59,034 bases of DNA from Candidatus Adiutrix sp. (GTDB lineage Bacteria; Desulfobacterota; Desulfarculia; Adiutricales; Adiutricaceae): the NCBI GenBank assembly GCA_031263565.1, contig JAISFR010000019.1:1-59034 (forward strand). Direction: 5' to 3'. This document shows positions 4,836 to 59,034 of the stretch, piece by piece. The position numbers were made by a program, and so were the translations under genes. Position 1 is the stretch's first letter; each line of letters begins with the position of its first letter. The notes beneath the pieces were generated by a model. That model was not told the origin of the DNA and made no database searches. It saw only the letters and a list, made by a program, of their open reading frames with translations.

Positions 4836-5753
4836 TTAATACACCTTGCCCTTGTTGGGGCTGTCCCAGAGCTTGTCGCTGAGGTAGCGGAAACCGGTGT
4901 CGCAGAGAATGGTCACCACGCAGGCGTCCGGGGGCAGTTCCCAGGCCAGTTTCAGGGCCGCGGCCACATTGGCCCCGGAACTGAGGCCCACGAAAAGTCC
5001 CTCGCGGCGGGCCAGCGCCAGGGTCATTTTGCGGGCTTCTTCAGTGGAGACGACCATGCGGCCGTCGCTCAGCCCGTCGTCGTAAAAGCTGGAAGGCGAG
5101 ATGGAGCCGGGGACGTAGCGGATGCCCTCCAAACCGTGAAGAGGGCTGTTGGGCTGCATGACCAGAGTCTGGACCTCGGGGTTGAAGGCCTTCAGGCGCC
5201 GGGCCACGCCCACGAAAGTGCCGGCCGTGCCCAGCCCGGCAATGAAGTGGGTGACCCGGCCCCGGGTCTGTTCCCAGATCTCCACCCCGGTGGTGTTGTA
5301 ATGGGCCCGCCAGTTCTCCTCATTGTTATATTGGTCGGGGTGGAAAAACTGCCGGGGATTTTTGCTGAAAATGCTCTGGGCCATTTCCATGGCCCCCTGA
5401 TGCCCCAGGATCGGGTCGGTTTCGATGATCTCGGCCCCCAGGGCGCTGAGAATGCGCTTGCGTTCCTGGTTGGCGTTGCGCGGCAGGCACAGAGCCGCCT
5501 TGTAACCCAGGGCGGCGCAGATCATGGCGTAGGCGATGCCCATGTTGCCGCTGGTGGCGTCCAGAAGGGTCTTGTCGAAATTCAGGGCGCCCGAACGGAT
5601 GCCCTCCCGGATCATGGCCCGTGCCGGACGGTCTTTGAGCGAGCCGCTGGGGTTGAGGAATTCGGCCTTGACCAGGATCCGGGCGCCGCCGTCTTCGTGG
5701 CCGATATGTCTCAACTTTATCAGGGGAGTGGTTCCGATCGAATCAAGCAGCAT
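4836..5753 (-). CDS. cysM: Cysteine synthase (CysM/CysK family)
   Basis: PLP enzyme of 305 residues that makes cysteine from O-acetyl- or O-phosphoserine and sulfide. The PLP lysine is K40 in NPSGSLKDRP, the substrate loop is TSGNMGIAYA, and the phosphate-binding GLGTAGTFVG follows. The start at 5753 has the upstream sequence taggtgg, a good ribosome site, and gives the family N-terminus MLLDSIGTTPLIKL; the open frame continues upstream in the wrong frame over the regulator gene. It sits 28 bases after the FhlA-like regulator, so the two probably share a transcript. Length and motifs fit CysM slightly better than CysK. Confidence 0.88.
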   Translation of the reverse strand: MLLDSIGTTPLIKLRHIGHEDGGARILVKAEFLNPSGSLKDRPARAMIREGIRSGALNFDKTLLDATSGNMGIAYAMICAALGYKAALCLPRNANQERKRILSALGAEIIETDPILGHQGAMEMAQSIFSKNPRQFFHPDQYNNEENWRAHYNTTGVEIWEQTRGRVTHFIAGLGTAGTFVGVARRLKAFNPEVQTLVMQPNSPLHGLEGIRYVPGSISPSSFYDDGLSDGRMVVSTEEARKMTLALARREGLFVGLSSGANVAAALKLAWELPPDACVVTILCDTGFRYLSDKLWDSPNKGKVY

Positions 5754-5781
5754 AGTCCACCTACTATAACCGGCGCGGGCC

Positions 5782-7380
5782 TCAGGCGCCGCTGAGGCCC
5801 AGTTTACGCATGCGATGCAGAAGGGTCGAACGCGGCAGGCCCAGGATCCTGGCCGCTCCTTTGGGGCCGGCGATGACCCCTCCGGAATGTTCCAGGACCC
5901 GGACAATGTGCCGGCGTTCGATTTCGGCCAGGGATTCCAGAAGGTCCGGGCTTTCGCCCGGGCCTTTTTCCGGGCCTCCGGCGGCCGGCCCCCGCCGGGC
6001 TTCGGCCAGAAAATAGCTCTCCGACTGGTCAATGATTTCCTTGACCAGGGCCGGCCGCAATTCACCGTGAACGCTCTGGGCGATGACCAGCCGGGTCATG
6101 AGGTTGTTGAGCTCCCGGGTGTTGCCCGGCCAGTGGTATTCCGAGAGGGCCCGCATCAGCTCCGGGGCATAGAGCAGATCGGCCAGGCCGGTGCGCTGGG
6201 CCGACTGGGCCGAGAGAACCATGGCCAGGGGGGCGATGTCCTCGGGCCGCTGCCGAAGGGGCGGCAGTTCGATGGCGTAAACCGAAATGCGGTGAAAGAG
6301 ATCCCCCCGCAAACGGCCCTGGCTGATGGCCTCGCCAATGTGGACGTTGGTGGCGGCCACGATGCGCATGTCCACCATGATGGGCACGCTCTCCCCGACC
6401 CGCTCGAAGCTGGAATCGTCCAGCACCTGCAAAAGCTTGGACTGCATGTCCAGCGACAGTTCGGCCACCTCGTCCAGGAAAAGAGTGCCCTTGTGGGCCA
6501 GTTCAAAGCGGCCGATGCGGTTTTTGGTGGCCCCGGTAAAAGAACCTTTGGCGTGGCCGAACATTTCGCTCTCAAAGAGGCTGCTGGCCAGAGACGGGCA
6601 GTTGACCCGCACGAAATGGCCGGCCGCCCGGAGGCTGTGATTGTGGATGTGCCGGGCGATCATGCTCTTGCCGGTGCCGGTCTCGCCCAGAAGCAGAACC
6701 GGCACATCCAGGTTGGCCAGAACCCCCAGTTGCCGGATGACCTCGCGCATGGCCTGGCTGCGGAAGACCATGGCCGTTTCAAAGCCCGGTTCGGATTCCT
6801 GGCTGGGCGGCGCTTCCACCTCGCTGAGAAAGCCGCCGTGCCGCATACGCTCCAGGGACAGCACCACCCCCAGGCAGGCGGCCACGGTCGGGCAGAAGTG
6901 GCTGGCAAAGGCGGCCACCTTGTAAAGGTTGTCGGGCCGGCTCTCGAAACCCAGGTGCAGGGAGGCGAAGATCTCGTTATTGAGCGACAGGGGAAAGGCG
7001 ATGACCGAGGCCGCGCTCTGCTGGAAAATGGGCGGGGAGGCCATGTCGATGAAATATTCCATGCAGTCGGGAATGATCAGGGTTTCCCGGGTGTCCTGGA
7101 TATATTCGGCCACGGTCAGGTTGAGCGAGCGGGGCAGAACCGGGGCAAAGGGATTGAGCTGTTTTTTGTCGGGGTGGGAATAGTCGGCCAGCATTTCCTC
7201 GCGCTGTTCGCGCAGGCTGAGCACCAGCCAGGAGAAATTGCAACTGGGGTGCAGAGCCTCGGCCAAAGTGCCCAGAAAATCCTTGCGGCCCACCCTCTCG
7301 CCCAGGGCGTTTAACAGATCCCGGTTGATCTGGGCCGCCTCCGGGGGAATGGCGACGTATGAATTGGCGCTGATGGGCAA
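5782..7380 (-). CDS. GAF-AAA+-Fis sigma-54 transcription activator, FhlA-like
   Basis: A 532-residue enhancer-binding protein. An N-terminal GAF-like sensor (about 20-175) is followed by the AAA+ core with Walker A GETGTGKS (232-239), then a C-terminal Fis-type helix-turn-helix (GPKGAARILGLPRSTLLHRM). The sigma-54 contact loop reads GSFTGA instead of GAFTGA. The HTH has the PkGAA...LGLPRSTL pattern seen in FhlA/HyfR relatives. The start is a TTG at 7380; no upstream ATG is in frame. It is followed by cysM and divergent from an aldo/keto reductase gene. The signal it senses is unknown. Confidence 0.88.
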   Translation of the reverse strand: MPISANSYVAIPPEAAQINRDLLNALGERVGRKDFLGTLAEALHPSCNFSWLVLSLREQREEMLADYSHPDKKQLNPFAPVLPRSLNLTVAEYIQDTRETLIIPDCMEYFIDMASPPIFQQSAASVIAFPLSLNNEIFASLHLGFESRPDNLYKVAAFASHFCPTVAACLGVVLSLERMRHGGFLSEVEAPPSQESEPGFETAMVFRSQAMREVIRQLGVLANLDVPVLLLGETGTGKSMIARHIHNHSLRAAGHFVRVNCPSLASSLFESEMFGHAKGSFTGATKNRIGRFELAHKGTLFLDEVAELSLDMQSKLLQVLDDSSFERVGESVPIMVDMRIVAATNVHIGEAISQGRLRGDLFHRISVYAIELPPLRQRPEDIAPLAMVLSAQSAQRTGLADLLYAPELMRALSEYHWPGNTRELNNLMTRLVIAQSVHGELRPALVKEIIDQSESYFLAEARRGPAAGGPEKGPGESPDLLESLAEIERRHIVRVLEHSGGVIAGPKGAARILGLPRSTLLHRMRKLGLSGA

Positions 7381-56902: not shown

Positions 56903-57445
56903 ATGCGTCTTCTGATTGCTTCCGATATTCACGGCTCTCTGGGCCAGGGCCGTCTGATCGGGGAAAAGGTCAGGGAGCATCAGGCCGGGCAGGTGCTGCT
57001 CCTGGGTGATCTGCTCTATCACGGACCCCGCAACCCGCTGCCCGCCGACTACGCCCCCGGGGAACTGGCCGGGCTGCTGTCCGATCTGGGCGCGCCGCTG
57101 ATGGCCATCCGCGGCAATTGTGATGCCGAGGTCGACCAGTTTGTGCTGCCCTTCCACCTGGCGGAAAGCGCCTGGATATTCGACGGCTCACGCCGCATCC
57201 TGGCCATTCACGGTCATCAGCTGGCCATTAACGGCGGCCCTCTGCCGGCCCCGGAAGGGGTGGCCGTGCTTTCCGGCCACAGCCACGTCCCCACGGCCGA
57301 AAAGCGCGGCCGCACCCACTTCTGGAACCCCGGCAGCAGCGCCCTGCCCAAGGAATCCTTTCCGCCCAGTTACGGTTTTTACCAGGACGGCCGCTTCCGG
57401 GTTCTGGATTTTAACGGGCAGGAACTGATGAGCGATTCTTTCTGA
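56903..57445 (+). CDS. YfcE/MJ0936-type phosphodiesterase
   Basis: A 180-residue metallophosphoesterase. Metal ligands are visible in ASDIHGS (D and H), LLLGDLLYHG, IRGNCDAEVD, AIHGHQL and GHSHVP. Such enzymes hydrolyse simple phosphodiesters; the natural substrate is unknown. The ATG at 56903 follows aaaggtg. It lies 47 bases after rfbB. Confidence 0.9.
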   Translation: MRLLIASDIHGSLGQGRLIGEKVREHQAGQVLLLGDLLYHGPRNPLPADYAPGELAGLLSDLGAPLMAIRGNCDAEVDQFVLPFHLAESAWIFDGSRRILAIHGHQLAINGGPLPAPEGVAVLSGHSHVPTAEKRGRTHFWNPGSSALPKESFPPSYGFYQDGRFRVLDFNGQELMSDSF

Positions 57446-57473
57446 CAAGGTCCGCCAGATAGCCGAATTGGTA

Positions 57474-57567
57474 TGTCCAATTGCGCGAATAACGGAAAGG
57501 GTGTACAGCCGCCAGCGGGAGGGGTGTCCAGTTTCACCGGTCACGGTGCACAGTTCAGCCCGGAATA
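57474..57567 (+). repeat. Four short repeats like an IS21-family end
   Basis: Four related units begin at 57474 (tgtccaattgcgcgaata), 57502 (tgtacagccgcc), 57525 (tgtccagtttcaccgg) and 57547 (tgcacagttcagcccggaat), 22-28 bases apart. IS21-family ends carry multiple similar repeats of the tgtcca...ccggaata type. There is no transposase here, so this could be a remnant. It sits exactly between normal genes and the low-GC module. Confidence 0.4.
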
Positions 57568-57577
57568 CTCAGGATGC

Positions 57578-58270
57578 TTATGGCTGGCTTCCAGGGGCGC
57601 CGGCAAGTTGTTCCAAGCGAGACAGCCACTCATGAAAATGCCTGCACCTGGCGCGAAGCGCGGGGAGTCCGATCCTCTCAGCAACTGCGGGGCCAGCCGT
57701 TGCTTTATCATATTCAGGTATTTCTTTTAGAATCCTCTTGGATGGGGCGGTCTCTCTGCCGTCATTTATGAGTTCAGGATTTTGACTGCCAACCATGGAA
57801 ATCAGGTTATGGATTGGGGTATCATGTTCCAGATATTCCCAGGAAAGATGCTGAGGGCCAGCCAGAATTAAGGCCTCAAACTCATGAAGTTGAATGTACG
57901 GAACGAATCGACGATCATCAATATCGGCGGCCATGCGCTCTTCAAGAATTTTGATTCTTTCATACGGATCGCGTTGAACATAGGCTTCCGCATATCCCGG
58001 AAAGTCAACCGGCAATGCGTAAAGATCAAACATGGTGGTGAAGCGGCACTCTTCCTGATGATCTTCCCTCAACCAAGCCGCAATGTCCTTTTTGGCTTTT
58101 TCATAGTTCAACAAGCCGCCGCGATACTCCTTTGCCGCACGTTTATCTTTACTTGTCAGGACAGAACGCGCATCGACAAAAACATTATATCCAGCCAGAT
58201 GTGGAGTAAGTATCTTTTTGGCAAAAATTTGTTCCGTCGGCCCTTCGGAGGTAATATGCAAGCGGATCAT
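57578..58270 (-). CDS. DUF4276 family protein, partner of the AAA ATPase
   Basis: A 230-residue protein of the DUF4276 family, with MIRLHITSEGPTEQIFAKKI, the motif FDLYALPVDFPGY and the block YIQLHEFEALILAG. It resembles the TOPRIM-like RloB-type proteins that pair with AAA ATPases in phage-resistance modules; the glutamate in SEGPTE and the aspartate in MFDLYALP fit a metal site. The ATG at 58270 overlaps the ATPase stop by 4 bases. GC content is clearly lower than in the genes to the left. Confidence 0.8.
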   Translation of the reverse strand: MIRLHITSEGPTEQIFAKKILTPHLAGYNVFVDARSVLTSKDKRAAKEYRGGLLNYEKAKKDIAAWLREDHQEECRFTTMFDLYALPVDFPGYAEAYVQRDPYERIKILEERMAADIDDRRFVPYIQLHEFEALILAGPQHLSWEYLEHDTPIHNLISMVGSQNPELINDGRETAPSKRILKEIPEYDKATAGPAVAERIGLPALRARCRHFHEWLSRLEQLAGAPGSQP

Positions 58271-59034
58271 GGCTGGCCTCCGAGCACATTTTTTTCCCAC
58301 AGTTCCGAGAGGCTGTAGCGAGCCAGCCAATCTTCCAATTGTTCCGCCTGGAGCTTTTTGAATACGGAGCAGTGTTTTTCGGGATCGCGCTCAACTATTA
58401 CCAGATTTTCAAGATCGAACTCGTCAACCAACCGCGTGGATTGGGTAGCGAGAAGTACTTGAGTATGTTGGGCGGCAATTTTGACCATGCCGGCCAATTC
58501 AGAAATAGCTGCCGGGTGCAATCCCAATTCGGGCTCATCAAGGACAATAAACTTAGGTAGTAAATCCGGCGGCTGAAGCAATAAAGCAGCCAAGGCCATG
58601 AAGCGCAAGGAACCATCTGATATCTGGTGTGGATCAAACAGATAATCACCGTTAAAAGAATCCCTCCAGTTTAGGCGAACATATTCCCCGGAGCCAGGGA
58701 TAAGCTCCAGATCAAAATCTCCGAATTGAGGCATTACGCGCTGAATATGCCGAACAATACGATTGTAATATTTTTCATATGAAGCGTACCCTTTGAGCAT
58801 TTTGAGGAATGCCGCCAAGTTGCCTGCATCATGGCGCAGGTGCCCGGCATCGTCCACATAGCAACGGTCTTTTATTCTTGCCGTGTCCGAGGTGTCATGA
58901 AACTGATAGGCGCGGATACCAGACAAAAGAGAAAATAACACCCTGCTTGTCTCATGATCGTCATTCTTTATCCCTGGCACACTAATAACAGGATTCAAAA
59001 AATATTCCTGCGGAGTTGCCATATTTTTTTTGTG
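58267..59034 (-). CDS. AAA family ATPase (SMC/OLD-like), 5' end outside window
   Basis: At least 255 residues of an ABC/SMC-like ATPase. The signature region is QISDGSLRFMALAALLL, Walker B is FIVLDEPELGLHP, and the switch region VLLATQSTRLVDEF follows. Walker A is missing because the frame continues past the right edge; the first ATG at 59022 is not the real start. It is coupled to the DUF4276 gene. Such pairs occur in defence islands; the function here is inferred. Confidence 0.85.
   Translation of the reverse strand, partial: HKKNMATPQEYFLNPVISVPGIKNDDHETSRVLFSLLSGIRAYQFHDTSDTARIKDRCYVDDAGHLRHDAGNLAAFLKMLKGYASYEKYYNRIVRHIQRVMPQFGDFDLELIPGSGEYVRLNWRDSFNGDYLFDPHQISDGSLRFMALAALLLQPPDLLPKFIVLDEPELGLHPAAISELAGMVKIAAQHTQVLLATQSTRLVDEFDLENLVIVERDPEKHCSVFKKLQAEQLEDWLARYSLSELWEKNVLGGQP

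Follow-up and report, generated by a model that had tools for sequence, protein, structure and literature searches.

The right-hand end of the window analysed here, which is the whole of contig C132 (59,034 bp) of a 2.97-Mb Candidatus Adiutrix draft genome, carries two low-GC genes, and the question they raise is whether they form an acquired phage defence system, as the initial annotation proposed, and how such a system might act. The features of this region are listed in Table 1. The two coupled genes, encoding an ATPase and a DUF4276 protein, lie where that annotation placed them, on the same strand and in the order A then B, and the ATG of the second overlaps the stop codon of the first as ATGA (58267–58270); their reading frames differ, so they are two overlapping genes and not one polypeptide. 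A TTG at 58330 is the first listed start of the DUF4276 open reading frame, and the ATG at 58270 is the likelier one, since MIRLHI is where the protein starts to be conserved. The span originally assigned to the module, 57474–59034, is correct for the gene pair and slightly wide at its left edge, where 57474–57577 is a non-coding repeat remnant. A scan for a promoter or terminator of the pair gave a result no better than chance.

Table 1. Features at the right end of the window, from the last conserved chromosomal gene to the end of the contig.
Feature	Coordinates	Strand	Description	Basis
yfcE	56903..57445	+	yfcE-type phosphodiesterase, last gene of conserved chromosomal block, left border of accessory region	NCBIfam PRK09453 4.5e-54
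Repeat array	57469..57571	+	degenerate array of direct repeats (~23 bp), similar to one end of an IS21-family element; GGTGTMCAG units, the final one ...CGGAATACTCA	pattern search; ISIde2 alignment
HEC-01B	57578..58270	-	230-aa DUF4276 protein, predicted to be a Toprim nuclease of OLD type	Pfam DUF4276 4.3e-51; PADLOC HEC-01B
HEC-01A	58267..59034	-	OLD/AAA_21-type ABC ATPase, C-terminal 255 residues	Pfam AAA_21 1e-18; PADLOC HEC-01A

A PADLOC search, suggested as a check when the locus was first described, assigns the pair to HEC-01, a candidate defence system. The ATPase matches the HEC-01A profile PDLC04175 at 1.6e-87 (profile positions 136–362 of 363) and the DUF4276 protein matches the HEC-01B profile PDLC04188 at 5.5e-77, and because both proteins match, and do so strongly and in the same gene order, the pair is by profile assignment a new member of HEC-01. 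It departs from the named system in that the contig end removes part of its ATPase and its site adjoins chromosomal housekeeping genes. The abbreviation HEC stands for Hma-embedded candidate, after a 2024 preprint by Payne et al. cited in PMC12988326; according to the latter paper antiviral activity has been shown for several HECs, of which it names HEC-06, and it makes no statement on whether HEC-01 is one of them. HEC-01 is listed among the defence systems of Desulfovibrio piger (PMC12724379). Since function is here predicted from sequence and models, "candidate phage defence", the wording used at the outset, is the right strength of claim, and the contig-end pair is a real but ordinary example of a two-gene antiviral candidate type.

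Alignment with full-length relatives, which carry a Walker A motif, an ABC signature and a Walker B motif, indicates that HEC-01A lacks about 115 N-terminal residues, Walker A included, and that the missing part lies beyond the contig end at 59034; it was sought on the other contigs of the genome and was not found there. The portion present contains the signature SDGSLRFM, the Walker B motif FIVLDEPELGLHP and a TQS motif. For the ATPase, the best sequence-profile match is the OLD nuclease 6p74 (1.5e-10), and retron/Septu PtuA and GajA are also matched. The structure was modelled for a full-length relative, L003 (pLDDT 88.4), and the fold matches of this model are SMC/Rad50 heads, PtuA, retron complexes or ATPases, and OLD (6p74 at 3.7e-12). 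The PADLOC AriA model PDLC02980 matches the ATPase at 3.5e-18, but the HEC-01A models score far higher.

For HEC-01B, an alignment of 40 relatives shows E9, D82, E130 and E132 to be invariant, and these acidic residues fall in the motifs EGxTE, MFDxY and HEFE; the classic Toprim DxD reads D-L-Y in this protein. A Toprim profile sought by sequence in the DUF4276 protein gave no match. The two PDB structures that its AlphaFold2 model (pLDDT 93.5) matches best are both of the C-terminal Toprim domain of XccOLD, the Xanthomonas OLD protein (E 5.1e-4 and 2.6e-3; match probabilities 1.00 and 0.99), and the better of these, 6njv, is a moderate match with a TM-score of 0.44 and 13% identity. The predicted fold thus points to DUF4276 being a Toprim nuclease that is the partner of an OLD-like ATPase. 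The full text of open papers was searched for DUF4276 and no mention was found.

The distribution of the family was surveyed in the best 80 of 459 confirmed DUF4276 relatives. In nearly all of these 80, which come from many phyla, an ATPase gene lies directly upstream of the DUF4276 gene, in the same order as in the window and usually overlapping it or a few bases away. In nine of the 80 (L007, L008, L009, L010, L011, L013, L014, L016 and L020) the pair is directly followed by pglZ and then brxL of BREX, and other neighbours found among the relatives are genes for a PtuB-type HNH protein, HEC-06, a type I methyltransferase, GmrSD and DarT. BREX, R-M, Septu PtuB and other defence genes are frequent neighbours of the relatives, and this, together with the maintenance of the pair as a unit across many phyla, supports the initial description of the pair as candidate defence. 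Many relatives have no defence neighbours (L003, for example, adjoins a leuA-like gene), and because many loci have such ordinary metabolic neighbours the pair is also a stand-alone module. Two loci of congeners may be recorded here: in G005 (L009/L112, 1–5648) the pair lies directly before pglZ-brxL and a contig end likewise interrupts its ATPase gene, and in G003 (L113, 4538–10691) a distant HEC-01-like pair is flanked by type III mod and res genes. Plasmids seldom carry the family (12 of 72,556 records); a search of 50,697 phage records gave no match to the pair at the sensitivity applied, and IMG/VR gave two matches only, the better being a 38% identical DUF4276 relative (L132) on a 36.6 kb viral contig.

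Is the pair foreign to its present site? The change in base composition relative to the left side, remarked on in the initial annotation, is evident: GC is 64% in yfcE and 48% in the pair, and it drops sharply at their boundary instead of falling gradually. Core genes at 47–53 kb (for example rsmG, 50% GC) come near the overall GC of the pair, so that total GC is weak evidence and GC3 the better measure; by the latter the two genes have the two lowest values (0.46 and 0.49) among the 52 long open reading frames of the window (mean 0.72). The block parA-parB-chlI-DUF1015-yfcE is conserved in the congeners G003 and G001 (rfbC-rfbB also in G003), and in both genomes yfcE is followed by an apparent MFS transporter or amidohydrolase gene and the pair is absent there; it is thus not core among relatives that share these neighbours. 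DUF4276 is patchy, occurring in 11 of the 60 genomes, that of the window included. The protein encoded in the window shares 73% identity with one in a Desulfosarcina, 69% with that of congener G005 and only 28–30% with those of congeners G004 and G003, and a tree groups it with the Desulfosarcina sequence (support 96/73). Horizontal acquisition, as first suggested, is supported by the conserved yfcE block in congeners without the pair, the patchiness, the Desulfosarcina affinity and the lowest GC3 values, and the pair is probably accessory and acquired separately from the neighbouring genes.

The junction itself, between yfcE and the DUF4276 gene, is marked by the repeat array. It consists of three GGTGNMCAG copies at 57500, 57523 and 57545 (spacing 23 and 22 bp) and a fourth, weaker unit, and the chance expectation of the paired repeat pattern in the window is 0.00. 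Alignment with the ISIde2 IS21 end covers 49 columns with a score of 27, where the maximum of 500 shuffles is 25. With a looser pattern similar arrays were found in viral contigs and then beside annotated istA/istB genes in Massilia and Alicycliphilus plasmids; an Acidithiobacillus array, by comparison, aligned to the window array no better than shuffles. Exact and near-match searches of 60 relatives, of plasmids and of viral contigs gave no further copy of the junction repeat, and the IS21 copies of relatives L121–L124 do not have this repeat type. An IS21 transposase was looked for beside the array, where there is none, and across the genome, where no IstA C-terminal (PF22483) match was obtained and IstB-type matches were weak. 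The label "IS21-like end repeats" given to this array earlier is therefore a fair name for a single orphan end, since its three spaced units resemble annotated IS21 ends.

The same genome contains two related loci. L115 (contig C97 of this genome, G000; 5503–6970, minus strand) is HEC-01-like, with a complete 387-aa ATPase that is 34% identical to the L003 ATPase; the DUF4276 protein encoded after it is truncated to 103 aa, and the locus has apparently decayed. L116 (G000 contig C27, 6913–8766, plus strand) has a third ATPase gene and a weak DUF4276-like gene (E 4.1e-4), and its ATPase sequence appears to lose frame before Walker B. A search of this genome for a BREX locus gave a single marginal PglZ-domain match of 25.9 bits, so that BREX as a neighbour of the pair is not supported here.

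Several known systems resemble the pair in architecture. In PARIS, AriA detects Ocr and sets free AriB, a tRNA-cutting enzyme (PMC12409363); the window pair is like it in having separate genes for an OLD-type ABC ATPase and a predicted Toprim-type nuclease and in the association of the family with R-M and BREX, but differs in that its predicted nuclease is a DUF4276 protein. Membership in PARIS was rejected because no AriB model was matched at E <= 1 and PADLOC matched only HEC-01B models. OLD and Gabija GajA combine an ABC ATPase with a Toprim domain, as the pair is predicted to do, and supply the best sequence and fold matches of the pair, whereas here the two parts are two proteins and not one, and no GajB helicase gene lies beside the pair in the available stretch. 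Septu and retron PtuA-PtuB likewise join a related OLD/Rad50-type ABC ATPase to a nuclease, but PtuB is an HNH nuclease and the window partner has a predicted Toprim-like fold. A survey of BREX loci describes TOPRIM-linked OLD-ABC modules within them as backup effectors (PMC12839542).

We think it rather likely that HEC-01 is a split OLD, PARIS-like backup module whose ATPase senses infection and frees a Toprim nuclease. The OLD-family ABC ATPase HEC-01A and the separate, predicted Toprim nuclease HEC-01B, translated from overlapping genes, would assemble into a complex in which HEC-01A holds the nuclease in check. By analogy with the systems above, HEC-01A might respond to an infection signal, plausibly a restriction-blocking phage protein or a disturbance of R-M or BREX function, and would then free or activate the Toprim enzyme, which would cut nucleic acid (DNA as in OLD or Gabija, or tRNA as in AriB) and so halt the production of phage, probably with some harm to the cell. 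Against this reading stand the moderate strength of the Toprim match, the D-L-Y in place of DxD and the many relatives that lack defence neighbours. A more specific form of this proposal, which we advance tentatively and regard as somewhat doubtful, is that DUF4276 forms a separate branch of the Toprim nucleases and that HEC-01 is a guard placed between BREX or R-M modification and effector genes, which fires when phage proteins disable them; it would be PARIS/Ocr-like, with a trigger and a target of its own.

The same architecture could also belong to an OLD-like system whose direct target is phage DNA, in the manner of OLD or Gabija, with neither a sensing-and-release step nor host suicide. 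The closest solved relatives are the OLD nuclease by sequence and the XccOLD Toprim by fold, and OLD proteins are DNA nucleases (PMC10568477); against this, ATPase and predicted nuclease have a gene each, as in PARIS and unlike OLD or GajA, and their repeated embedding in R-M and BREX loci suits a guard of those systems, so that we hold direct action to be unlikely. The defence gene neighbours (BREX, R-M, PtuB and DarT) also weigh against a stability module, selfish or akin to a toxin-antitoxin system, that has no direct anti-phage role, a reading to which Pfam's description of the ATPase family as a putative AbiEii/type IV TA-related domain and the presence of the family on some plasmids lend themselves; plasmid carriage is rare, and this reading seems to us very improbable.

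A different doubt concerns this particular copy, which might be a decaying remnant or an assembly join and not a working system. The contig stops within it, an orphan IS21-type end adjoins it, its ATPase N-terminus was found on no other contig, and the second HEC-01-like locus of the genome has a truncated DUF4276 gene. Nonetheless, the reading frame is open over the 255 ATPase residues present and throughout DUF4276, and the conserved motifs of both are intact; the closest relatives are found in related bacteria and in gut bacteria, in keeping with transfer and not with a random join. We consider a remnant or a join quite improbable.

With this pair the host genome gains a named candidate defence system, one that occupies an accessory site. 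Beyond this genome, the value of the locus lies in the family: the most useful by-product is the fold result, which ties DUF4276 to the OLD-type Toprim nucleases, and the repeated place of the pair just before pglZ in BREX loci gives a testable idea of what the HEC-01 trigger may be.
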